DNA of 64,000 nt, taken from NCBI GenBank assembly GCA_963922205.1, contig CAWUHX010000150.1, forward strand, positions 434,001 through 498,000, read 5' to 3'. This DNA is from Romanomermis culicivorax. Its lineage: Eukaryota; Nematoda; Enoplea; Mermithida; Mermithidae. The notes beneath the pieces were generated by a model, which was given only the letters and a program-made list of their open reading frames with translations, had not been told where the DNA came from and did not search any database. The first letter of the stretch is position 1. Every line of letters starts with the position of its first letter. Positions 26,171 through 59,500 of this stretch are shown here, one piece after another. The translations under genes were made by a program, and so were the position numbers.

Positions 26171-26825
26171 TAAAACGCATTTTTCCGGCATTTTCCCCTA
26201 CTCTACGTTTATATTGCTGTGGAATTTTTCACTCAAAAATTGCAGCTCATAGTTGGATGGGTTCACGAGTTAACACTTCCATGTGAGACGTCGTGTTAGA
26301 GGAGAAAATTTGAGAAATTTGTTTGCGAATTAATTTCATCATTTGCTCGGAAAATTCCAAAGAAACTGATAACTTCAAAGAGAACCATTTTTAGCCGAAT
26401 TAATTTTGAGGAACGGGGGCCGGTATTACTATTGCGACTTAAGTAGGAGCTTAAGGTGCAACTTAAGTCTCTACAATGTTATAACATATAAAAAAAGTTA
26501 AGTTCCAGCCGAGCACCAGCTTGGCCGGTATTACTAAAAATTTGTTAAGCTGCACCTGAGCAACAGACTCAAGTCCATTCAGCTGTTAAGCTGGAGCTCA
26601 AGTCTGACTAGTATTATGAAAGTTAAGCTAGAGCTTAAGCTGCAGCTTGACGTAAAAAAGTTAAGATTGGGGATAGCTGTCTTAAGTTCGTATTTTATGC
26701 TAGTCGTTTGGTTATATTGCTTGATGAAGAAAACGTCAATATAGAATTCGTAGAAATCGAAACTTTTCCTAGAAAATCGAGAACAACTAATCACTTTATT
26801 TATACATATATCTCTATCAATGTTA

Positions 26826-27070
26826 TAGTCTGTTTTTTATAAAATGCTTCCAAATAGAAAAGTGACACAAATCAGTACTGTCTTCAAAATCGCTTACATA
26901 AAGTTCTTTTTGTAAAATTTTTAACTCGAAAAATTGCTAAAGGTTAGGTCAGTATGCTTACAAATTTCTAGTCCTACATGATATTTTGTTTGTCAGAAAA
27001 TCGCGAAAATTTGAAATACTACTTGCTTTCCACTTCTATTATTTGGAAGCGCTTTAAGAAAAACAGACTA
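26826..27070 (+). mobile_element. TA-flanked MITE, 245 bp
   Basis: TAGTCTGTTTTTTATAAAATGC at the left and AAGAAAAACAGACTA at the right form inverted ends, with TA on each side. Collinear with 39025-39269 over the full length. Confidence 0.85.
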
Positions 27071-27355
27071 TAGTATTTTTCGATAAGTTCAATGCACATA
27101 GGTACTAGGTACTGTTGGATTATGCACACAGAAGAAAATAAACATCGTAGAGGCCCAAAAAAATGCCGACAGGAAAAGTTAAGCTACAGCTTAACTTCCA
27201 AGGCAAAACATATGAAATAGGTTAAGCTGGAACTTAAGCTGGTGCTCAGCAACAGCTTCGCCAAGCTGCAGCTTCTCATCTTAGTAATACCGACTTAAGC
27301 AGTAGCTTAACCAAGTTCCATCTTAACTTCCCACACAAAAGATATAAAAATGTAG

Positions 27356-28261
27356 TGTAACGACCAGATTTGTGTGAGGTACTTTACTTTTAACCAACGG
27401 TCTCTACGGCGGAACAAAGGAGCGCGGGCGTACAATATGGTGATACGGCTAATGATGATCGACGGCTGCTTACGACGTCGATACGACAATACAAAACCCG
27501 TCTCGATTTACAATAACGAACGGGGGCCTCGGTTTAAGTTGCTTTCATACAATTGGCCGCTTGCAAATATAAAAGACGGGGGCGAGCGCGGTTTAAAATG
27601 ACGAATTCGAAAATCCAAAAACTCTAACCAATAATAACAAAAATCACGCTTTGCTTCTTCTTTTATACGACGTTTTTGGCCACTCCCTGGGCGTTGCGGG
27701 AGGTCGTGCTTCTGTCCATCTTCTTCCGCCAATCGTCCCTTCCTGCTACACTTTTTATGCTTTCTTAGTTACGCCTTTCTAATGCTTTCCTGGTACTGTA
27801 TGCTTTCCGTGCTTCATTTGCTTTCTACGGTGGGATTAGCCACACCTTTGTGCTTCTGTGCATGCTTCCTGTATCGGTTTCTCTGTATACACATGTTTTG
27901 TGGGGCCGCTGCTACCGTTACACTTGAGACTACTGTCTGGCGGGGCTTCTACGTATTTTACTGTGTGCAGGTGTTGTTTACGATTTTTACGGGGGATTAC
28001 GGTAGCTGTGGAATGTGTAGTTTAGTGTAGGTTCTAGGGGACCAGCTGCCGTTTGTGCAAATTAATTAGGGCATCTTAATTGGGCTACCGGGGTGTGAAC
28101 GGATCAAAATAAAGTACTTCACATAATTTTATAGGAATGTTTGGGTGTGAATCCCAGACACCCTTGAGACGATAAAATACGAAAATGAATAATATTTAAT
28201 AAATGTTTATCACATACAGTATGCTATATATTTACAGTACTGCTTTAGCAGGTACGTTACA
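27356..28261 (-). mobile_element. Solo LTR, 906 bp, minus strand
   Basis: Bounded by TGTAACGACC and GGTACGTTACA and exactly 906 bp, the same length as the LTRs of the complete element. GTAG occurs immediately outside on both sides (27352-27355, 28262-28265), an intact 4-bp target duplication. This marks LTR-LTR recombination that removed the internal region. A minus-strand TATA box (TATAAAAGAAG) lies near 27665. Confidence 0.92.
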
Positions 28262-29042: not shown

Positions 29043-29561
29043 TGTAACATACATGCTAACGCAGTACTGTAAATATATAGTGTACACTATGTGATAATCA
29101 TTATTAAATATTATTTCATTTCTTAATCTATTGTCTCAAGGGTGTCTGGGATTAACACCCAAACATTCCTGTAAAATTATGTGAAGTACTTTATTTTGAT
29201 CCTTCCACACCCCAGTAGCCGCTATTGACCCAATTAAGACGCCCCAATTAATTTGCGCAATGGCAACTGGTCCCCTAGAATCTACATTAAAGTACTCATT
29301 CCATGGCTACATTAATTTCTCATAAAAGTCGTAAACAACACCTGTACACAGTAAAAAGTAAAAGCCCTGCCAGACAGAAGTCTCAAGTGGGACAGTAGCG
29401 ATGGTCCCACAAAACATGTGTACACAGAGGAAATAGGTACAGAGGCATGCACAGAAGCACAGAGGTGTGGCTAAGCCCACTGTAGGAAGCAAGCATAGTG
29501 AAGACACGAAAAGCATACAGTACTAGGAAAGCATTGGAAAGCATGACCAAATTAGCGAGAT
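29043..29561 (+). mobile_element. Old gypsy-type LTR, left part
   Basis: Begins TGTAACATACATGCTAACGC and is collinear with the first part of the 906-bp LTR, but with many substitutions. It is cut at 29561 by the complete element; the remainder continues at 38878-39509. Confidence 0.85.
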
Positions 29562-30467
29562 TGTAACGTACCTGCTAAAGCAGTACTGTAAACATGTAGC
29601 ATACTGTATGTAATAGACATTTATTAGATATTATTTTATTTTCACATTTTATCGTCTCAAGGATGTCTGGGATTCACACCCAAACATTCCTACAGAATTA
29701 CGTGAAGTACTTTATTTTGATCCGTTCACACCCCGGTAGCCCAATTAAGACGCCCTAATTAATTTGCACAAACGGCAGCTGTTCCCCTAGAACCTACACT
29801 AAACTACACATTCCACAGCTACCGTAATCCCCCGTAAAAATCGTAAACAACACCTGCACACAGTAAAATATGTAGAAGCCCCGCCGTACAGTAGTCTCAA
29901 GTGTAACAGTAGTGGCGGCCCCACAAAACGTGTGTATACAGAGAAACCGATACAGGAAGCATGCACAGAAGCACAAAGGTGTGGCCAAGCCCACCGTAGA
30001 AAGCAAGTGAAGCACAGAAAGCATACGGTACCAGAAAAGCATTAGGGAGGCGTAATTAAGAAAGCGTAAAAAGCGTAGCAGGAAACGACGATTGGCAGAA
30101 GAAGATGGACAGAAGCTCGACCTCCCGTGACGCCCAGGGAGTGGCCAGAATCGCCGTATAAAAGAAGAAGCAAAGCGTGATTTGATCATTCTTATTCTTG
30201 TGGTTTTTTTCCGTTTTGACTTCCGCGCTCGCCCCGTCTTTTTTATACATTTGCAAGCGGCCGACTATTCGAAAGCAACTTAAACCGAGGCCCCCATCTG
30301 TATTTGAATTCGAAGCGCATTTATTGTCGACGTTCAAGCGACCGTCGATCCCCGTTGTTTTATTGTAATCGTACGCCCGCGCCCCCGTCCCCTATTTGTC
30401 CCCGCCGTATCGACCGATTGGTTAATTGGTTAGAAGTAAAGTACCTCATGCAAATCTGGTTGTTACA
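29562..30467 (+). promoter_or_regulatory. 5' LTR with promoter
   Basis: 906 bp, TG...CA ends. A TATAAAA box lies at 30157-30163 just after a GGAGTGGCC block that is conserved in every LTR copy here, so transcription probably starts some 25-30 bp downstream. The reading frame of the polyprotein is already open in the last 40 bp of this LTR. Confidence 0.9.
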
Positions 30468-30472
30468 TATTT

Positions 30473-30490
30473 TGGTGACCGTACCATTAC
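30473..30490 (+). promoter_or_regulatory. Putative tRNA primer binding site
   Basis: TGGTGACCGTACCATTAC begins five bases after the LTR, the usual place for minus-strand priming. Its first three bases (TGG) pair with a tRNA CCA end. Which tRNA is used cannot be decided here. Confidence 0.55.
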
Positions 30491-30710
30491 GTTAACCAGT
30501 GGAACTCCCTGCCCCCAGTTAGGTGTACTCTTATCCGGGCATTTAGAAGCATTAGATAATACAGTAGTAATCATTTCCTACAGTAAGACAGTATTCGTAG
30601 AAAGCAAACTGGAAATCCCCTCTAACGAGACATTAAGCGATACATTTAAACGAATACAGCGTGAAGCAAAAATTGAAGCATTTAAGCAGAAATCCCATCG
30701 TAAACCAAGA

Positions 30711-33700
30711 ATGACCCACCAAACGCAAGATCATTTAGGAGAAATCGTTAGAGAACAGATAAACGATTTGTTTTCAGAACATTTTCGTACCCTACGCACA
30801 CAATTGAATCAGAATACAGTAAACCCTACCCTAATAGACGATTTAAGAACAGCAAACATTCGTAATAACATGGCAAACAATTTCTACGCGAAACCTACAG
30901 TATTCACGGGCGGCGTGACCCAACATTTTGGTGAATGGAACAAAAGATTAGAACAATTCATGGCACTCCAAGGCATGAAAGATACAGACGTACAGTTAAA
31001 GTTGGCATGTTTAGAAATTCATTTAGGAGGAGCCGCATTAGCAAAATTCAAAAGCTTAGCCAATTCCGAAAACCCTCCCCACACATACGAGCAGTATAAA
31101 GTCGCATTGCAGGCATTTTTCCCAAACAATAGAGATAATGAGCTACATCAACAATTCCTACGCGAAAGAAAACAAAAGCGATCAGAAACAGTAACGGAAT
31201 TCTTATTTGATCTAGAACATCTCGCAACCCTCGCCTACCCTAACTTTAACACAGACGCACGAGAAATGATCATAAGACCCCTCTTTGTAGAAGGCATGCA
31301 AAACGAAATCAGGGAAGCAATTAAGTATAGAAGATTCACAACTCTAAAAGAAATGTCAGACGAAGCAGCTTACATTGAACAGCAAATTCTTAGAAATGAG
31401 TTAAAGTCTAACGCCCTTCCCTTCATACCCCCAAAACCCGAACCCATCTTTTCCCTCACCAATAACACAGATCAACAGGATCTTTTGCATCAGTTAGAAC
31501 AACAAGTAAAAGATTTACAGTTGCAGATCAAACAAAAACCTCAACCCCCACAACAAAGTAGCTACAACAATTTCAGTAACAATACTTTCAGCAGGAATAA
31601 TGCTTACAGGAACAATACCACCCCCAGGCAACCCACATGCTTCCAGTGTGGACAAATCGGACACGTAGCTCGTAATTGTAAATCAGTAGGCACCCGAAAA
31701 TCATGTGAAATCTGTTTCCATAATAATCACAGTACACGTGATTGTAAAAGCCGATGCATCCACTGCTCCCAAACAGGACATAGATCAGATAACTGCCTTT
31801 CAAAACCCTACTCCAATTTTCAATGTTTTCTATGCAAGCAGAGAGGTCATACAAGCAGGTATTGTCCAAATCAGCAGAGTCGTAATATTCAAAATTGCAT
31901 TGAGTACAGGCAACCCCAACCCCTCATGGACATTGATGACCCCGCATTTTACTCAAAATTACCCGCCATAACTAACGGCCCTCAGACTACTTTAGGAACT
32001 ATCATGCCCAACACCCACCGCCGTAGTGACGAATACGTCCTTGATCTGGACGTACCCGATTGGTGCGCCATGTCACCACCCCCCACGCCTGAAGCCGCAA
32101 AAATCGAAAAATTGCCGCCCACCATCCCCGTAGGCTACAAGATCCCCCGAAAGCAAGACACAACGCCACCCACCGCCCCCGAAACCCCATCGAAAACAGG
32201 TCGCAACTTATTGTCCCTCTTACACGGCCTGACCCCTGAACCCTACCAATTCCGCCCCCGCCAAACGCTTCTACCAACCCCCACAAGTAAGCAAGTCCAA
32301 ACCCCATCCCATGACTCAACTTTTAAAGTTTTACAGACCGTTCAGATTTCAAATCGGCCACCCCCCCAGCTCAAAATCGCAAAACGACAACACCAAAAAC
32401 CGCCACGCCAAATCGAGCAGAGCGAAAAAACACAGTACCCCGCCGCCTCCACTAAAACACTACATTGGCCATTGTATTGTATATTTTTATGTATAATAAT
32501 CCCCACATCGTGTAGTGCCCAATTTCAGATGTGTGGAACTTCATTGAGCGGTCACTCAGTCAGCATACCAAAACTTGTATCATGCATGCCCCCTTCCACA
32601 GTAGACAAACCCGTACAAACATTCGGAAAAATCTATATCCCCTCCACTAAGCCCCACATTACAGACACATACAAATGCAGTGTTCGCAAACGCAAAATTT
32701 GTACTAATACAGGATTTTTTGGATCAAAAGGTATTGTCTTCGACCAAACCAAAATGCAAAATCTAACCCCACATGTTTGTAAGGCAATCGTTATAGACAA
32801 AGAACACAATGGTCAAAAATTATACGAAACCCAACCAGGATTTTGGTCAACAAATAACTCCCTAAGCGTAGAATACACATGGTGTTGTACAGACCATTGT
32901 ACCTCGGTCACTAACGTCATCATAGAAATAGGACAAATAGCATCTTGGAATGGAAAATCTATGACAGGTACATTAGGCGACCTGGGGTCATGCAAACCGA
33001 CATCAGGTCATTGTGTCACAGCCGACGGATCCATTATCTGGAATGAAACAGCATTTGAAAACCTATGTCCTTTCGAATACAAAAATACACATCCCATCAA
33101 ACTCACGCAAACCCACATGATAATAGAAGAGCTACAAGGTGCATTCTCGGTTAAAAACATACTCTTTTCGAACCCCAATTGCCCAGAAATCCAAGACAGC
33201 ATTCTAACCGAACAAGGCATTATTGTACAATTAGACAAAAGCACCCCACATCGTAACGCATTTTTAACCCCAAAAACCAACGAAACTCATACTACACTAT
33301 ACGATTTTGATGATTTTGAACCCATCAATGCAAAACTAAACTATCTAGCAGACAAAATACAGGAATTCGAAATTCAAAATTTCAAAAACGTATGGAGTGA
33401 ATTATGCAGACAGGCACAGCGTCACCTTGATCTCGTATGGCAAATTTTACGTCTTGATGCAACCCTTGGAGCCCGTGCATTCCTACAGCGAACCGACATA
33501 ATAGCAGAATTCACAGGAGAAGCCCTCACAGTCTGGCCCTGCAAGCAGGTAAACGCATCCAAAGTCTTTTACAACCATAAAATCAACCAAACATGCTACA
33601 AACTTTTGCCCATTCTCGTAGGAACTGAACTCATGTTTTCAAATCCAGGTGGCAACGATTTGACCCCTTTCTCACAAACCGTTGACTGCCATCACATGCA

Positions 33701-36700
33701 TGTAGCCCTTTACAAACAGAATAATACATGGGTCAGTGAAACAGGATCCCCGCATGTCACAAATTTACCTTTAGAAATCGTCTGGAACCAAAATTTCTCC
33801 CTTTTCCATTTTAATACACCCGCCATTTTTCATGATCAACTTGCAACTATTTCGACCAACTTACTCTTTTTGAAACAATACATTTACAAAACTCACACAC
33901 TCGAAAACATTGTCAAAAAACTCGTCAATTACACCGCCCAAATGTCTCTCAATTCCGATACAGTTTACAACATGATCTCAGGCACTGGCCAAGCACTCGG
34001 AAATACACTCTCTGGCGCCGGTCAAGGCATAGAACATGTAATAACCGGTACCACCCAAAGTCTCACGGACGGATTAAACAATTTACTCAAAGGACCCCTG
34101 CAAATCATTATCAATCTCGCCGTTATTACTGTAGTTATTGCAGGCGTCTTTTATTCGTTTCTCGTTCTTCGAAAATATTTCCCCTCTCCAAAGCATCATG
34201 CCACAAACGAACATGCATACGAAATACCATCAAACAACAGACATTTACATGAGACCATTCCCCCATCATTCGGCCATGCTCTCTTAGAATTAGCTAATCG
34301 TCGTGGGGCACAAACACAGCAGAAATACGTCCTTGTCGATATTGATACCCCCCGAACTCCTGCAATCGAACTCATTAATCAAATTCACCAATCTGCATCA
34401 AATAAGCCACCCCAAAACGTACCTGAGAAACATACCCCTCATATTCCAATCACACTTAACGGCAAATTAATGACAAAAGGCATGATTGACACTGGTGCAG
34501 TTTACTCACTCATTGATTCCCGAATCGCTCAAATCCTACAGTTAGACATGAAACCCCCGCTAGTCCAAGCAAAAGCAGCAAATAATCTTCCGATTCACTT
34601 TGTAGGAACCACTTTTGTCACAGTGACAGCCCAAACAATCCAGGAAACAATCATGGTCCATGTCCAAAAAGATTGCACAGCAGACATCCTTCTAGGCAAA
34701 AACTTTCTCAGTCGATTTTCGGAATACACTATCAACAATCAAAAATCACAGGTCAAATTTGGCAATGTTATACTACCTTGTGATGGCCTAGAATATAGCC
34801 CTCTTTCAACTCGTGGTGGAACTTATTTGGATGAGAAATTAGAATTACCACCCCGTACAGTAACCGAATTTACTGTCCCCTTGCCCAAATCGTACTTACA
34901 GGTCAAACAGCTTGAATTCACCCCGAAACCCAAACAGAACTCTAAAGTCCATTTCGCAGCTTGTATATCTGAGAATCAAAACAGTCGCATACGCATATCG
35001 GTCCTAAACACACAAGAAACAGCCCAAATTCTTTACCCTGGAACATGCATTGGTACAGTCTCCTGTTACATCCCGAAACAAAATACTCCTGCTAACGTAA
35101 CCCCTTCAACGCAAAACCAGCCCAACCGTTTTGATACATTCACATGGTTAAAAGAAAATGTCAATTTAACCTCCAGTGACCTCACAGAAGCAGAAAAAAC
35201 GCAACTCCTACGCGCCCTATCGAAGTACCCTACATTATATGCTAAATCCAAAATGGACGTAGGTAGAACCACCCTCGTTTCACATACAATTGACACCAAT
35301 GGCTCCCAACCCGTACGTAGACAACTTTATCGGACTTCCCCAAAAGAAAAGCAAATCATACAAGCAGAAGTTGAGCAACTCGCAGCAGCAGGTGTCATAA
35401 GCCAAAGCAATTCCCCATGGTGTACCAACACAGTTTTAGTTCCCAAAAAAGATGGAGGCCATCGTTTATGCATTGATTTTCGAGGCCTCAACAAAGTCAC
35501 AAAAAAAGATACCTACCCCTTACCCCGTATAGACGAAATTCTAGACACCCTCCGTGGAATGAAATATTTTACGTCCCTTGACCAATCCAATGCATATTAT
35601 TCCATTCCCATAGCACAAGCAGACAGAGAAAAAACTGCATTCAATTGCTCAGCCGGCCAGTATCAATTCAATTACCTCCCCTTTGGACTCACCAATGCCC
35701 CAGCCACATTCCAAAGGTTAATGGATGTTATTCTTTCGGGTCTGCAATGGAACACATGCCTTGTGTATCTCGACGATGTTTTGGTATTCGCAGACTCCCA
35801 TGCCCAAATGCTGGAACGTTTAGACACTATTCTTGCCCGATTCTCACAAGCAGGCCTTAAGCTAAACATACAAAAATGCAAATTCTGCCAGCCCCAAGTC
35901 CAATACTTAGGCCACGTCATTTCTCAGCAAGGCATTTCACCAGATCCCCATAAGGTACAGGCCATCTATGACATACCCACACCCAAAAGCTCAAAAGAAG
36001 TTAAGTCATTCCTTGGCCTACCCTCATATTATCGCAGATTCATCCCAAATTGCTCTCAAGTTTCTAGCCCACTCACATCGCTACTCAAAAAGAATTCCGA
36101 ATTTTCCTGGGGCCCTGAACAGCAAAATGCATTCACTAAGCTAAAAGAATTACTCATTCATGCCCCAATACTACAGCACCCCGACTTCACAAAACCCTTT
36201 ATTCTGCAAATCGACGCCTCAAAACTCGGAATCGGCGCCATTCTCAGTCAGCTAGATAGTAAAGGTCAGGATCGCCCCATTGCTTTTGGGAGCCGCACAT
36301 TGAAACCCGCAGAACGCAACTATCCGATCACTGAGTTGGAAACCCTTGCAGTAGTCGAATTTGTCAAGTATTTCCACCCCTATCTTTTCCAGCAACATGT
36401 TATTGTACACACTGACCACACAGCAGTTCAGGCAGTCTTACAAAAGGAAAACCCGTCCCCTCGCATTGCCCGTTGGGGATTAGCCCTCTCCGGTATTCAG
36501 CTAGACATTCGACCCAAGAAAGGCACTGCTAACCGCAACGCAGATGCTGTCTCTCGATTCCCCTCACAGACAGCAAAGCAATCCTTTGATATTGAGCAAT
36601 TAGAAACCCGCCCCGAAATATCAACTATCAATTCAGTTTTGGAAGCCGAAGCAACTGAACAAGAAGAGCAACAGAAAAACTTTGCCGAACTCCAACGCAC

Positions 36701-37940
36701 TGACCCAACTGTCAAAAGTATTTTAGCAAAAATCTCCCAAAAACACCCCCTTACCCTTATCAAATTCGCAGTGCATCAAAACATTCTCTTCCGTATAGTC
36801 GACAAACAGGCAAAACTATACATTCCCAAGTCCCAAGTCCAGCATCTCATCGCCTCACATCATGACAGCAAATTCACAGGTCATTTTGCGGCCCGGAAAA
36901 CTCTACACTTGCTCAGACAGAAATACTTTTGGCCCCAAATGAGCCGTGATATCAAACGTTACTGCAAAACTTGCCACCCATGCCAGACACAGAAAGCTCT
37001 TAGGCACAAAGTACATGCAAACTTGGTACCAATTCAGCCAACTGGCCCATTTGATCGCGTTCGTGTTGATTGCATGGGACCGTTACCCCTCACTGAAGAC
37101 GGCAACCGATTCATTGTCGTTTTCATCGATTATTTCACAAAGTATGTAGAGGCATTCCCGACCCCTGACATCACCGCAGCCACTATTGCCAAGCTATTCG
37201 TAACCAAAATTGTTTGCCGTCATGGGTCCCCAAAAATCATCCATTGTGATCGTGGCTCCGATTTCGTATCCGATCTTTTCTCACGGATCACCAGTTTATG
37301 CAATACTCAGAAAATTCATACCACCCCATACCATCCCATTGCCAATGGGGAAGTTGAGCGTTGCAACCAAACCTTAGCCACCCGTATCCGCATGTACATC
37401 AATTCAAATCACACTGATTGGGATACTTATCTCCCGTACGCCGTTTTTTCGATCAACATTTATAAAAATGATAGCACTTCGTATCCCCCATTTGAATTAC
37501 TCCACGGTAGGCAAGCTAATCTGCCGTCAGATACAGCCTTAAACTTTTTCCCCACGTCCTACATGGTTGATTTAGACGATTACGCCCTTCGTGTAAAATC
37601 GCATTTCACAGAAGCACTCTCAACCGTGCAGAAAAGTTTGCAAAAAGCCCAAGCCCACTATACCCGTCAGTATAACAAGCATGCTCAGAACGTACATTAC
37701 AAGGCAGGTGATCTTATTCTCTACAAAAATCATTCGTGTAAACAAGGGCTGACTCCCAAATTCCTCCCTCGCCAGAACGGGCCCTATACAGTTACAAATT
37801 TCATGTACCCCAACGTTACACTCAAACACCCCCATAAGAATATTACATTTACGGTGCATGTAAACGAGACAACCCCTTTCTACCCTCGGAAAGCAACTAT
37901 CGAATCTACCCCCACCCCTCCTCAACCTCGAAAGCCTTGA
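30711..37940 (+). CDS. Gag-envelope-Pol polyprotein in a single frame
   Basis: From the first in-frame ATG the product is 2409 residues; the frame is also open without ATG for 81 codons upstream to the LTR. Domains in order: capsid-like Gag (about 60-220); four CCHC knuckles (310-323, 332-345, 349-362, 372-385); proline-rich linker; hydrophobic signal-like segment (584-600, ending SCSAQ); a Cys-rich ectodomain with several N-x-S/T sites; a transmembrane segment (about 1131-1155); aspartic protease (DTGA, D1260, then ILLG); reverse transcriptase with YLDD (1686-1689); RNase H (D1835); HHCC finger; and integrase DD35E (D2120, D2180, E2216). All key residues are present, so the element could be autonomous. 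Gypsy-type elements normally place envelope after integrase; here it separates Gag from protease. The signal/TM pair would put the ectodomain in the ER lumen and leave Gag and Pol cytosolic. The envelope's virus family is uncertain. Confidence 0.93.
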   Translation: MTHQTQDHLGEIVREQINDLFSEHFRTLRTQLNQNTVNPTLIDDLRTANIRNNMANNFYAKPTVFTGGVTQHFGEWNKRLEQFMALQGMKDTDVQLKLACLEIHLGGAALAKFKSLANSENPPHTYEQYKVALQAFFPNNRDNELHQQFLRERKQKRSETVTEFLFDLEHLATLAYPNFNTDAREMIIRPLFVEGMQNEIREAIKYRRFTTLKEMSDEAAYIEQQILRNELKSNALPFIPPKPEPIFSLTNNTDQQDLLHQLEQQVKDLQLQIKQKPQPPQQSSYNNFSNNTFSRNNAYRNNTTPRQPTCFQCGQIGHVARNCKSVGTRKSCEICFHNNHSTRDCKSRCIHCSQTGHRSDNCLSKPYSNFQCFLCKQRGHTSRYCPNQQSRNIQNCIEYRQPQPLMDIDDPAFYSKLPAITNGPQTTLGTIMPNTHRRSDEYVLDLDVPDWCAMSPPPTPEAAKIEKLPPTIPVGYKIPRKQDTTPPTAPETPSKTGRNLLSLLHGLTPEPYQFRPRQTLLPTPTSKQVQTPSHDSTFKVLQTVQISNRPPPQLKIAKRQHQKPPRQIEQSEKTQYPAASTKTLHWPLYCIFLCIIIPTSCSAQFQMCGTSLSGHSVSIPKLVSCMPPSTVDKPVQTFGKIYIPSTKPHITDTYKCSVRKRKICTNTGFFGSKGIVFDQTKMQNLTPHVCKAIVIDKEHNGQKLYETQPGFWSTNNSLSVEYTWCCTDHCTSVTNVIIEIGQIASWNGKSMTGTLGDLGSCKPTSGHCVTADGSIIWNETAFENLCPFEYKNTHPIKLTQTHMIIEELQGAFSVKNILFSNPNCPEIQDSILTEQGIIVQLDKSTPHRNAFLTPKTNETHTTLYDFDDFEPINAKLNYLADKIQEFEIQNFKNVWSELCRQAQRHLDLVWQILRLDATLGARAFLQRTDIIAEFTGEALTVWPCKQVNASKVFYNHKINQTCYKLLPILVGTELMFSNPGGNDLTPFSQTVDCHHMHVALYKQNNTWVSETGSPHVTNLPLEIVWNQNFSLFHFNTPAIFHDQLATISTNLLFLKQYIYKTHTLENIVKKLVNYTAQMSLNSDTVYNMISGTGQALGNTLSGAGQGIEHVITGTTQSLTDGLNNLLKGPLQIIINLAVITVVIAGVFYSFLVLRKYFPSPKHHATNEHAYEIPSNNRHLHETIPPSFGHALLELANRRGAQTQQKYVLVDIDTPRTPAIELINQIHQSASNKPPQNVPEKHTPHIPITLNGKLMTKGMIDTGAVYSLIDSRIAQILQLDMKPPLVQAKAANNLPIHFVGTTFVTVTAQTIQETIMVHVQKDCTADILLGKNFLSRFSEYTINNQKSQVKFGNVILPCDGLEYSPLSTRGGTYLDEKLELPPRTVTEFTVPLPKSYLQVKQLEFTPKPKQNSKVHFAACISENQNSRIRISVLNTQETAQILYPGTCIGTVSCYIPKQNTPANVTPSTQNQPNRFDTFTWLKENVNLTSSDLTEAEKTQLLRALSKYPTLYAKSKMDVGRTTLVSHTIDTNGSQPVRRQLYRTSPKEKQIIQAEVEQLAAAGVISQSNSPWCTNTVLVPKKDGGHRLCIDFRGLNKVTKKDTYPLPRIDEILDTLRGMKYFTSLDQSNAYYSIPIAQADREKTAFNCSAGQYQFNYLPFGLTNAPATFQRLMDVILSGLQWNTCLVYLDDVLVFADSHAQMLERLDTILARFSQAGLKLNIQKCKFCQPQVQYLGHVISQQGISPDPHKVQAIYDIPTPKSSKEVKSFLGLPSYYRRFIPNCSQVSSPLTSLLKKNSEFSWGPEQQNAFTKLKELLIHAPILQHPDFTKPFILQIDASKLGIGAILSQLDSKGQDRPIAFGSRTLKPAERNYPITELETLAVVEFVKYFHPYLFQQHVIVHTDHTAVQAVLQKENPSPRIARWGLALSGIQLDIRPKKGTANRNADAVSRFPSQTAKQSFDIEQLETRPEISTINSVLEAEATEQEEQQKNFAELQRTDPTVKSILAKISQKHPLTLIKFAVHQNILFRIVDKQAKLYIPKSQVQHLIASHHDSKFTGHFAARKTLHLLRQKYFWPQMSRDIKRYCKTCHPCQTQKALRHKVHANLVPIQPTGPFDRVRVDCMGPLPLTEDGNRFIVVFIDYFTKYVEAFPTPDITAATIAKLFVTKIVCRHGSPKIIHCDRGSDFVSDLFSRITSLCNTQKIHTTPYHPIANGEVERCNQTLATRIRMYINSNHTDWDTYLPYAVFSINIYKNDSTSYPPFELLHGRQANLPSDTALNFFPTSYMVDLDDYALRVKSHFTEALSTVQKSLQKAQAHYTRQYNKHAQNVHYKAGDLILYKNHSCKQGLTPKFLPRQNGPYTVTNFMYPNVTLKHPHKNITFTVHVNETTPFYPRKATIESTPTPPQPRKP

Positions 37941-37958
37941 ACGAGGACGTTCAACTCC

Positions 37959-37971
37959 GGAAGGAGGGAAA
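37959..37971 (+). promoter_or_regulatory. Polypurine tract
   Basis: GGAAGGAGGGAAA abuts the 3' LTR, the expected plus-strand primer. The same tract precedes the LTR of the deleted copy at 1706-1718. Confidence 0.85.
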
Positions 37972-38877
37972 TGTAACGTACCTGCTAAAGCAGTACTGTA
38001 AATATGTAGCATACTGTATGTAATAGACATTTATTAGATATTATTTTATTTTCACATTTTATCGTCTCAAGGATGTCTGGGATTCACACCCAAACATTCC
38101 TACAAAATTACGTGAAGTACTTTATTTTGATCCGTTCACACCCCGGTAGCCCAATTAAGATGCCCTAATTAATTTGCACAAACGGCAGCTGTTCCCCTAG
38201 AACCTACACTAAACTACACATTCCACAGCTACCGTAATCCCCCGTAAAAATCGTAAACAACACCTGCACACAGTAAAATATGTAGAAGCCCCGCCGTACA
38301 GTAGTCTCAAGTGTAACAGTAGCGGCGGCCCCACAAAACGTGTGTATACAGAGAAACCGATACAGGAAGCATGCACAGAAGCACAAAGGTGTGGCCAAGC
38401 CCACCGTAGAAAGCAAGTGAAGCACAGAAAGCATACGGTACCAGAAAAGCATTAGAGAGGCGTAATTAAGAAAGCGTAAAAAGCGTAGCAGGAAACGACG
38501 ATTGGCGGAAGAAGATGGACAGAAGCTCGACCTCCCGCGACGCCCAGGGAGTGGCCAGAATCGCCGTATAAAAGAAGAAGCAAAGCGTGATTTGATCATT
38601 CTTATTCTTGTGGTTTTTTTCCGTTTTGACTTCCGCGCTCGCCCCGTCTTTTTTATACATTTGCAAGCGGCCGACTATTCGAAAGCAACTTAAACCGAGG
38701 CCCCCGTCCGTATTTTAATTCGAAGCGCGTTTATTGTCGACGTTCAAGCGACCGTCGATCCCCGTTGTTTTATTGTAATCGTACGCCCGCGCCCCCGTCC
38801 CGTATTTGTCCCCGCCGTATCGACCGATTGGTTAATTGGTTAGAAGTAAAGTACCTCACACAAATCTGGTCGTTACA
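37972..38877 (+). mobile_element. 3' LTR of the complete element
   Basis: 906 bp, same length as the 5' LTR, ends CGTTACA. TATAAAA at 38567-38573. Short frames on both strands within it mirror those of the 5' LTR and are not genes. Confidence 0.95.
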
Positions 38878-39509
38878 AGATTAAGGAAGCAAGAAGTGGC
38901 GATGGGCCGAAGAAGATGGACAGAAGCAAGACCTCCTGCGATGCCCAAGGAGTGGCCACAGAATCCGCATTTAAAGAGAAGCAAAGCATGATTTAGTCAG
39001 TTCTCGGAGAATTTTGCGATTTTATAGTCTGTTTTTTATAAAATGCTTCCAGATACAAAAGTGACACAAATCAGTACTGTCGTCGAAATCGTTTACATAA
39101 AGTTCTTACTGTAAATCTTTTCACTCGAAAAATCACTAAAGGTTAGGTCAGTGTGCTCAAAAATTTCCAGCCCTACATGATATTTCGTTTATCAGAAAAT
39201 AGCAAAAATCTTAAATACTACTTGCTTTCCCCTTTCATTATTTGGAAGCATTTCAAGAAAAACTGACTATAGTGTTATTTGCAAGCGCCCCCGTTTTTTA
39301 TTTGCAAGCGAGATTTCTTTTCGAAAGCAGTTAAACCGAGTTTAGTTTATCACAAGCATTGTGTTGTGTATTGTCGAGGAATCAAGCGATCATCAATCCC
39401 ATAATTGTGCTATCGTGTCGTGCCCCGGTATTCGCCCCTATCCCATTTGTACGTCGCCTCGTTCGTTCGTTTAGGATCAAGTAAAGTATCTCTAGAACTG
39501 GTAGTTACA
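38878..39509 (+). mobile_element. Old gypsy-type LTR, right part (with MITE insert)
   Basis: Continues the LTR interrupted at 29561, restarting with the duplicated AGAT and keeping the GACCTCCTGCGATGCCCAAGG block. It is interrupted again by the TA-MITE at 39025-39269 and ends GTAGTTACA. The possible 4-bp duplication around the old LTR (CATT / CTTT) no longer matches exactly. Confidence 0.8.
39025..39269 (+). mobile_element. TA-flanked MITE, 245 bp
   Basis: TAGTCTGTTTTTTATAAAATGC at the left, AAGAAAAACTGACTA at the right, TA flanks. Same length and orientation as 26826-27070, inserted in the old LTR. Confidence 0.85.
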
Positions 39510-52770: not shown

Positions 52771-52966
<196 letters not shown>

Positions 52967-53119
52967 ATAAACATTTGGAACTGAAGAAAAAATTTTGGCG
53001 AAATCAAATCCGAAAAAATGCGGTTTGGTGGACTTTAAAAGGTCAAAATCTCAAAATTTTCTGGCGCGCCGGTCATGTGTACCTATATAATAATCATACT
53101 AATAAATGTTCAACAGTCT

Positions 53120-56521: not shown

Positions 56522-59500
56522 ATGAGTCGATCTGCATCATCTATCGACAATAATGAATACGTGCTGACGTTGAAAGCGGAGGATATCGAATTCGAAGCGA
56601 CGGGAAACCCTAGTGGGTTGAGCCGCGCCTTCTGTGAGTTCTCAGGAAGCTCTGTGACATTTACTATAGAGAAACTCCAAATATTCCGATATTCTGATAT
56701 GAATTAGACAGTACGTAATTTGTCTTGGCAGTAGTGATTGACACACATGTTCTGGATCTTTGTTTCTCTAAAGTATTTTCTGAGAAATTTGACGTCTTTT
56801 TTCCAGCCGAATCATCTGAAATTCCTTTTATGAACGACGAACCAGCTCCAATATCCAATGACGAAGCGGCGCCCTTCTTTCCATCTGATCAAGATCAACG
56901 GGAAGATATTTCGGTCGACGATGATCACGCGATAAACAACGATGGCGGTGATAACGATATAGATCAAATTAGCGATGAAGAAAATGACGACCTTGATCAT
57001 CAGGAATTGGTATTTTTGCCCAATGTCGACGATGAATACGATGACAAGGAGAATGACGACAAAAGTGATCAAAGTTTGGAGGAAAATTTAGAATTTATCG
57101 GGAACGAAATGGCGCAACAACAAGACCAAATGCAACAGAATACGTCGCTAGAAGATATTTTGTCGAACGAAGATTTGGAGAAGAAAAATTCTATTAATCA
57201 AGAAGATTTGACGGAGATGTTATACGAGGAAGTGATCGAAGAGGACGGTGAAAATCGAGAAAATTTGGATAACGATGAAATCAACAACCAAACGGCTATA
57301 GAAGAAGCGTTCAAAATTTTACACCGCGACGATTCGATGGAGGAAGGTAGTGTAAACTCTTTTTTTGAAGAGTGCAAAGTTCGAAAAATTGTATACGACC
57401 AGGAAATTGGACTATTATTTTGCGATTTGATCCCAAGTTTTATATTTTTTGTCTGAAAATCAGCAATCAACCGGTGAAGGCGACGAAGGATCGCAGTCTA
57501 CACAAATTTACCTTAAAAGGAAGACTTTGTTGAGATAACTTTTTGTCTCCTTTATGAAGGAAGAACATTTTATACTTCATCAAATTTATGAATAAGATAA
57601 AAACGGTAAGTAAGAAGAATCGGGGCTACACGGCGTACTTTTCGTGATTATTTTCGATTAATTTTACATGCCACACGTTTTAACATGTCGTGTATTTTCT
57701 TCTTCATGTATTCATTCACTCGCTTAACATTTTTCACATAATATTACGTTAGATAACGAATCGAACAAATGCATGAAACTAGTTTCGGCGGGAAAGGAGA
57801 CGGACGAGAATAAGGGACGTCAAAATTTCGTTATTACTTGCGTTAATGACAAAGTTGCAGGTAAAAACAGGTTTTACCACTAAATTTATTTTACCTTGTT
57901 CCGTGTTGACTGTTTAATTATATATTTGAAGCCTGACTACATACATATCTATAATTGTTGATATATTACTGATTAATTGTGCAAAATATTGAGAAAATGT
58001 CACTATTCTCGTAGACTGAATTTTATTTCACTTTTCAGAAGCTAATCGCATCTATAAAACTGAATTAGCGAGAGTTCAACGCAAAGTTAAAGAAATCGGC
58101 GATACCAGTGGTAAACTTGATACGTTTGATGAAGGAAATGCGACAGGACAGAACGAGCAGAATGTAGCAAATAACATTGAAGAAAATCAGGAAGCTGTCA
58201 TTGAAGTTGAGGACGAAATAAAGAATGAAAAATCGTCGTCGCGCGATTCTTCACCATCATCACCAGAAAGTGAGTTATCTAAAAGGTGATCGATCAGGGA
58301 GACTGCTTCGTGATAGACCCTCTAGTTCAGAAATTGACTACGGTGGTCGATTTCATAAAATCTTTCAATTTTATAGGTTCAGTCGAGGAGGGAGAAGAAA
58401 AGCCGACCTCAAAAGAGAAAAAGAAACGTAACTCAAGCCCAGCCGTTCGCAATAAAAGGAAAAGATCAAGATGTGAGTTATTATTATTGATAATATATTT
58501 TGCTTCAGCTTTACTTGGCATAATTTTCAGCAAACTCTCCAGAAAAATCTTCGCATAAAACGAAACTATCAAAGAAGAAGTCATCTACGGATAAAAAGCG
58601 CAAAGGTATTAATTGTGGTCATTCAATAAAGCAAAATTATGAATTATTCTCAAAGTATTCTAACTCGGAAACTCTGGATTTCTCTTTCTTAACTTTGCAG
58701 AGACGGAAGGCTTTGCCCTGCATTATTTTGCCCTTTTGAAACATCCATTTTATCGGTACCTAATTTCCATTTTAGATATTTCGCCTTTTCAAGCATTTTT
58801 CGAAGACACCCGATATTTTCTGATCAAAAGCGCAAATCCCGAAAATGTTATTTTGTCCAAAGTCAAAGTAAATATTTTTGAGCATAGTTTTTCATTATTC
58901 AATTTGATGTGGTTCTATTTGTTTCTCTAGGGTGTTTGGTCAACAACGCCCCGTAACGAGCAGCTGTTGAATAGAGCTTTCAAACGTCATCACAACGTCA
59001 TTTTGATATTTAGCGTGGAAAAAAGTCAAGCTTATCAAGGTAAAAATGCACGTGCTGCGACCTTTAGCAATTTGCCTAAGGCTCTGTGCTTAAAATTTCT
59101 TCTGCTGATAATTTGTTCGAGATAATGAATATGAATGAGTTCGCAATTATATCGATCATTACATAGAAGCGCAGAGAGTGAGAATAGTTAGCATTTATAA
59201 CATTTTTTGCGACAGTTTGAAGAAAATTCTCTGCGCTGTCGACGTTTTTGTGCAGAAACAGTATATGCAAGTGCGACCTGAAAACTGAAGAGGTTTGTTT
59301 CAGAATGATTAAGTCGTTACTTCGAAAAGTTGGTGCTCGTTTGGAGTTTTCCTTGGTTTCCAAAGCAAAGGCTTCTGTCTTAAAGAAGTTAGTTTATCAA
59401 AATATTGAAGAGGCAAAGTGACCAGCAATCAGGAAATTGGGAATTATTTTTTGAACCCAGAAATGAACGGAGTTTTTGATAAGAATCAAAAGACTTTTCA

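Follow-up and report, generated by a model that had tools for sequence, protein, structure and literature searches.

A gypsy-like retroelement of Romanomermis culicivorax with an envelope segment between Gag and protease in a single open reading frame

For the Ty3/Gypsy elements (Metaviridae), the profile of the International Committee on Taxonomy of Viruses (ICTV) places the envelope protein (Env), where present, downstream of integrase (IN) (PMC7879559). Errantiviruses and other env-carrying gypsy elements have a separate env open reading frame (ORF) after pol, and in the Retroviridae env likewise follows pol. The window analysed here, 64,000 nucleotides (nt) of the nematode Romanomermis culicivorax (assembly GCA_963922205.1, contig CAWUHX010000150.1, positions 434,001 to 498,000 of the forward strand), contains a long terminal repeat (LTR) element at 29562-38877 that differs from all of these, with Env located between Gag and protease (PR) and the order Gag-Env-PR-reverse transcriptase (RT)-RNase H (RH)-IN in one frame. 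The element has in common with the Metaviridae the LTRs, the positions of the primer binding site (PBS) and polypurine tract (PPT), a CCHC Gag and the PR-RT-RH-IN domains (PMC7879559), but since its Env stands between Gag and PR we call it 'gypsy-like', with a genome plan outside the ICTV description. The original prediction, made from the sequence of this window, had stated that known gypsy elements place env after integrase, which agrees with that profile, and that Env is here inserted between Gag and protease, a reading supported by the copies, the fold and the relatives described below. We consider it likely that the element belongs to a recently active multicopy Ty3/Gypsy-like family, in which the single Gag-Env-PR-RT-RH-IN frame would specify a membrane-threaded polyprotein.

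Class III envelopes have been reported in LTR elements before. For example, the available part of PMC7642597 describes Anakin BEL/Pao elements that carry a chuvirus glycoprotein, and states that in Roo, Tas and Cer-7 env follows the polyprotein. Anakin resembles the present element in that a chuvirus-like Env was captured by an LTR element, but its pol is Pao-type and not gypsy-type (PMC7642597). The Pfam matches of our element were to gypsy-type domains, with none to a BEL/Pao-type family such as DUF5641. PMC13172572 mentions gypsy and BEL insertions that carry type III fusion glycoproteins, and the metazoan env-carrying gypsy elements and errantiviruses share with our element an Env and type III fusion glycoproteins; the accessible sections of that paper describe GAG, POL and ENV ORFs, once as tandem, and make no mention of a place for Env inside the polyprotein. 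As far as the available portions of the respective sources go, a later survey found no clear capture of chuvirus-like glycoproteins by gypsy (PMC10084718), the extra ORFs of bdelloid rotifer elements are given as ORF3, a place usually taken as downstream of pol (PMC5408684), and the order Gag-Env-Pol is absent from the descriptions of Odin/lokiretroviruses (PMC9040795), Troyka (PMC12440569) and Kuafuorterviruses (PMC11673190). Among open-licence PubMed Central (PMC) papers, we found no relevant paper on an env between gag and pol. The claim that no gag-env-PR-RT-RH-IN family had been described therefore stands within this literature, but the capture of class III envelopes by LTR elements was, in the parts available, already known (PMC7642597, PMC13172572); what is new is the position of Env inside one frame, and the architecture is new as far as the open-licence PMC literature shows.

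All parts of the element lie on the + strand. The 5' LTR (29562-30467, 906 bp, TGTAAC..GTTACA) and the 3' LTR (37972-38877) show 15 differences over 906 sites, of which 13 are transitions; they are flanked by a target site duplication (TSD), AGAT, at 29558-29561 (followed by TGTAAC) and 38878-38881 (preceded by GTTACA). A putative tRNA PBS, TGGTGACC..., lies 5 nt past the LTR (30473-30490), and a PPT read from the sequence (37959-37971) adjoins the 3' LTR, so that the structural features of the Metaviridae (TG..CA LTR ends, 4-bp TSD, putative PBS and PPT) are all present. The ORF at 30426-37940 has no internal stop and, read from the ATG at 30711, encodes 2409 residues, confirming the claim of one frame of this length without stop or frameshift; it ends 31 nt before the 3' LTR. 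At its longest, the internal region can be read for 2490 codons without a stop; 200 mononucleotide shuffles reached no more than 216. When the frame was submitted to Pfam as four pieces, the matches followed the order Retrotrans_gag, CCHC knuckles, Monjiviricetes_fusion, aspartic protease, RT, RNase H and integrase, so the order Gag-Env-PR-RT-RH-IN in one frame, with Env between the zinc knuckles and the DTGA protease as had been predicted, is confirmed. Specifically, Gag (30711-32459) consists of a capsid (PF03732, 25.5 bits, cut-off 24.1), CCHC zinc knuckles (PF00098, 30.9 bits, cut-off 20.8) and a variable tail; after Env come the aspartic protease (DTGA; 34446-34715, PF13975, 35.0 bits, cut-off 28.2), RT (35439-35921, PF00078, 134.8 bits), RH (36114-36491, PF17917, 125.1 bits, and PF17919, 122.6 bits) and IN, with an H2C2 zinc domain and core (36822-37337, PF17921, 76.8 bits, and PF00665, 38.6 bits, cut-off 32.6), in the gypsy-type order. 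Copia also has a single frame and is not known to carry an Env. Cer1 of Caenorhabditis elegans, in the available part of PMC10309623, has a gag-pol without stop and a spliced product.

The Env segment (32460-34310) comprises an internal signal, a Cys-rich class III fusion-type ectodomain, a transmembrane (TM) helix and a tail. As the original prediction had claimed, the ectodomain is Cys-rich and glycosylatable and is followed by a TM helix: residues 1-545 contain 19 Cys, the segment has 9 N-glycosylation sequons, and the helix occupies residues 549-567 (34104-34160; hydropathy 2.4) with a positively charged C side (net +3 over the following 15 residues). The signal-like segment fared less well, in that a hydrophobic core with a likely signal-peptidase region (LYCIFLCIIIPTSCSA, 32472-32519; putative cleavage site by the -3,-1 rule) is present but weaker than in relatives and visible only with a 15-residue hydropathy window, whereas in the piece from 32460 no 19-residue window reached a hydropathy of 1.6 at this core. 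Env matched Pfam Monjiviricetes_fusion (PF24664) at 66.9 bits, against a curated cut-off of 27, and fold searches matched its modelled fold to that of herpesvirus gB. By profile and model, Env is a Monjiviricetes/chuvirus-like class III fusion-type glycoprotein with a predicted fusion function, and the alternative that the segment is not a membrane glycoprotein fails. A sequence search of the PDB gave no match at E<=5, and no Rfam family reached its gathering score. The glycoproteins of Monjiviricetes and herpesvirus gB, with which Env shares PF24664 and the class III fold, are genes of RNA or DNA viruses and are not known as parts of a reverse-transcribing polyprotein.

Copies were sought in the host genome (359 Mb, 595 contigs) and picked by closeness to the window copy, and the best 71 (Env) or 73 (PR-RT) candidates were scored. 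The best 71 of 4227 candidates from the Env search were 97-100% identical, with Env full or nearly full length; 69 had no stop inside Env, and 41, including the window copy, lay in frames open over 2400 codons or more. As these had been picked by Env similarity, a PR-RT search was added, of which the best 73 of 8891 candidates were 98-100% identical, and, leaving the window copy aside, the 2700 bases upstream of PR were taken from 52 of the remaining 72. Env, whose coverage may here join pieces across frameshifts, extended over at least 600 of its 617 residues in 51 copies, where it abutted PR, and over 528 in one; none of these 52 copies lacked Env. Stop-free sequence was found over Env in 45, over Env together with the final 100 codons of gag in 41, although the sequence of the gag tail varies, and over the 900 codons ending at PR in 37. 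The same order is therefore found in other copies (51/52 with full-length Env and 1/52 with partial Env), and the position of Env is the architecture of a multicopy family and not a peculiarity of the window copy.

Ratios of nonsynonymous to synonymous substitution rates (dN/dS) in the PR-RT-picked set were 0.103 for the Env ectodomain (48 of the 52 loci, with a largest pair divergence of 13.9%, in which some misread frame may remain), 0.144 for the TM helix and tail and 0.262 for the gag tail (40 of the 52 loci). Twenty Env-picked copies gave 0.041 for Env, 0.078 for the TM helix and tail, 0.187 for the gag side (16 loci) and 0.052 for PR and its link (18 loci), but this set, chosen by Env protein score and with 16 to 20 of the 20 loci used, is biased toward Env, and the value of 0.103 is preferred. 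Env is thus under purifying selection. The LTR pairs of ten further copies differed by 0, 0, 0, 1, 1, 1, 1, 5, 9 and 12 bases of 883-904, and a 4-bp TSD was present in nine of the ten; near-identical LTR pairs in Env-bearing copies show that Gag-Env-Pol was amplified recently, as one unit.

Three protein searches, one of them represented by the best 120 of 6143 matches, yielded 128 proteins for examination, among which ten carried an Env 31-40% identical to that of the window. Gag-Env-Pol order recurs in these proteins from other data sources, in its entirety in P0096 (2294 aa; weak Gag match at 74-223, knuckle at 335, Env at 437-1000, DTGA at 1086, then RT, RH and IN). P0010 has Gag, knuckle, Env, PR and the pre-RT link, P0011 Gag and Env, P0025 Env, PR, RT, RH and IN, P0009 Env through RH, P0012 Env, PR and the start of RT, and P0003 Env and a collinear PR region with DSGS; in P0004, Env stands behind an apparent BEL integrase tail (DUF5641, 16 bits, under the cut-off), and P0005 and P0006 consist of Env only. 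DNA of the relatives was found in none of the scanned viral contigs or bacterial and archaeal genome contigs, so they are known as proteins only, some of them metagenomic, with ORF edges that rest on database entries. P0006 (Gammaproteobacteria GY820) and P0012 (Desulfobacteraceae GY737) are retroelement-like proteins filed under bacterial metagenome-assembled genomes, probably as a result of eukaryotic contamination.

In RT-RH trees the window copy grouped with P0025, P0009, P0024, P0021 and P0031, and P0096 was placed elsewhere. The env carriers alone as one RT clade were rejected (approximately unbiased test, p-AU 1e-5), suggesting that env moved or was lost, whereas a clade of env carriers with P0021, P0024 and P0031 was not rejected (p-AU 0.105). 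P0021 has two hydrophobic helices (509-527 and 570-588) between zinc knuckles and PR, a feature found only in P0021 and P0096 among the 34 listed proteins, out of 120, in which both the knuckle and the protease motif could be located (in the other 86, no knuckle or no D[TS]G[AS] was recognised), and may have lost its ectodomain in frame. We hold as evenly balanced the view that the order arose once, deep in the gypsy lineage, and that some members, such as P0021, have since lost the ectodomain and kept the membrane helices. The helices retained in P0021, the clade that was not rejected, and an Env tree that joins the window copy, P0009, P0025 and P0005 (support 98/98), the first three of which RT joins with P0021, P0024 and P0031, are in its favour; the place of P0096 in the RT tree speaks against it, and independent captures at the same place are compatible with the data. 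The rejected env-carrier clade, together with an internally deleted copy without Env at 1-2548 of the window, might also be taken to mean that the element is dead or a one-off recombinant, an endogenous viral glycoprotein dropped into a gypsy element. This is already contradicted by a family that is multicopy and young, by selection on Env and by the repetition of the order in relatives, and we regard it as highly improbable.

At all four gag/env junctions available, the last Met lies ahead of the signal core, 134 residues upstream in the window copy and 306, 313 and 45 in the other three, so Env has no near start codon; one TM helix stands behind it. In the polyprotein reading that we favour, translation would start at Gag, and the internal signal at the start of Env would pass the nascent chain to the endoplasmic reticulum (ER), where signal peptidase would release Gag and Env would fold in the lumen. 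The TM helix would then bring the tail and PR-RT-RH-IN back to the cytosol, to be freed by the element's protease. Given a signal at the start of Env and one TM helix at its end, the simplest reading is that the chain would pass through the ER membrane twice, outward and then back, with Gag and Pol cytosolic; Gag, Env and the enzymes would come from one chain, and particles would bud with Env. The structural polyproteins of flaviviruses and alphaviruses similarly have capsid, internal signal and glycoproteins in a single chain, although these RNA viruses are not known to have a reverse transcriptase.

Splice sites, scored with a generic matrix, bear on two other modes of expression. Env could be made from a spliced subgenomic mRNA, as in gypsy, with an upstream AUG exon joined to an acceptor just before Env and the open frame incidental. 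An acceptor-like site at 32370 ranks 12/530, and retroviral ENV comes from a separate spliced mRNA according to the available part of PMC10309623, but the best donor in 30100-30760, at 30583, ranks 14/407 and lies ahead of the AUG, and the message would still continue into PR. Moreover, gag and env are joined in frame in P0010, P0011 and P0096, and env and PR in P0003, P0009, P0010, P0012, P0025 and P0096 (not in P0011), and we consider this mode unlikely.

The second mode has Env as a retained intron: full-length RNA would give Gag-Env-Pol, and most Gag-Pol would come from RNA spliced 32287-34288 (2001 nt, in frame), or the donor with another acceptor would give Gag alone. Copia makes Gag alone by splicing. 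The donor-like core AAGTAAG, close to the gag end (32285-32291, first intron base 32287), ranks 3/407 among GT sites of the element, and with both scores above 3 there is a single in-frame excision pair, which removes Env. The core, found first and tested for conservation afterwards, is kept in 51 of the 52 copies; the mean for 7-mers up to 90 nt away is 25.7/52, with 5% of them as well kept, a share that rises to 18% over the whole gag tail. Both sites occur in 51 of the 52 copies, with the frame preserved in 43, but a third of pairs would be in frame by chance, and this too was tested after the site was seen. In addition, the acceptor (hypothetical, first exon base 34288) is weak, at rank 69/530 among AG sites; conservation of the full donor 9-mer is 62%, where the gag tail averages 68% and the adjacent 120 nt 46%, and that of the acceptor 11-mer is 69%, where Env averages 77%. 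An Env-bearing chain would still be needed, because Env has no near start codon. We view this mode as possible but rather doubtful; as a lead, the pattern suggests a second, spliced RNA that would omit Env and supply extra Gag or Gag-Pol. More tentatively than the polyprotein itself, and at somewhat less than even confidence, we propose a living lineage in which shell, fusogen and enzymes would share one membrane-threaded polyprotein, a splice at the gag end that drops Env would set their ratio, and an ectodomain-less relative would keep the signal and TM helices.

Several observations weigh against the polyprotein reading. Its translation is a prediction from the sequence, and the better conservation of the donor core than of its surroundings suggests that not all RNA may be unspliced. 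Retroviral particles need far more Gag than Pol, and this ratio is a weak point of a single chain. The choice of copies by closeness to the window copy left older subfamilies unseen, and the ten dated copies came from the Env-picked set and were mostly chosen for long frames. The AlphaFold model of Env is of modest confidence (mean pLDDT 61.6). Among the relatives, P0096 has only a weak match to Gag (21.7% identity, E 6e-5), the protein P0011 stops behind its Env tail, and the starting Met lies at the signal in P0003 and after it in P0009, so that some relatives may be separate-framed or cut. P0021, among the nearest by RT, lacks the ectodomain, and the flanks of its second helix (+3 on the N side, +2 on the C side) leave the orientation unsupported.

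Other parts of the window also contain sequences related to the family. At 1-2548, a second, diverged copy is cut by the window edge; its gag piece is 51% identical and passes, without a change of frame, to the pre-RT link and further toward the 3' end with its LTR, and nothing in it matched Env, PR, the RT core, RH or IN. An in-frame 201-bp tandem duplication (858-1255) is present in it, and its frame is free of stops over at least 574 codons, which suggests a derivative reduced to Gag or a gene that has been kept. The host flanks of the element, joined at the insertion point, form an older LTR that aligns across the junction with another LTR copy of the window (81.5%). This older family LTR (29043-29557 plus 38878-about 39000) was the target of the insertion; its right part from 39019 matches 26820-27080 (87%) and not the family LTR. 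A family LTR in reverse orientation lies at 27356-28261 (- strand), with no adjoining element seen. Elsewhere, a TAT tandem array of 66 copies occupies 52771-52968, and an ORF of 243 aa at 56725-57456 encodes an acidic, low-complexity product.

The capture of env is thought to turn retrotransposons into retroviruses, and the published plan has env at the 3' end. An Env kept under selection inside the polyprotein would be another way to build an enveloped retroelement, one that poses a topological problem, that of keeping Gag and Pol cytosolic and in the right ratio, in a family young enough for study in its host.
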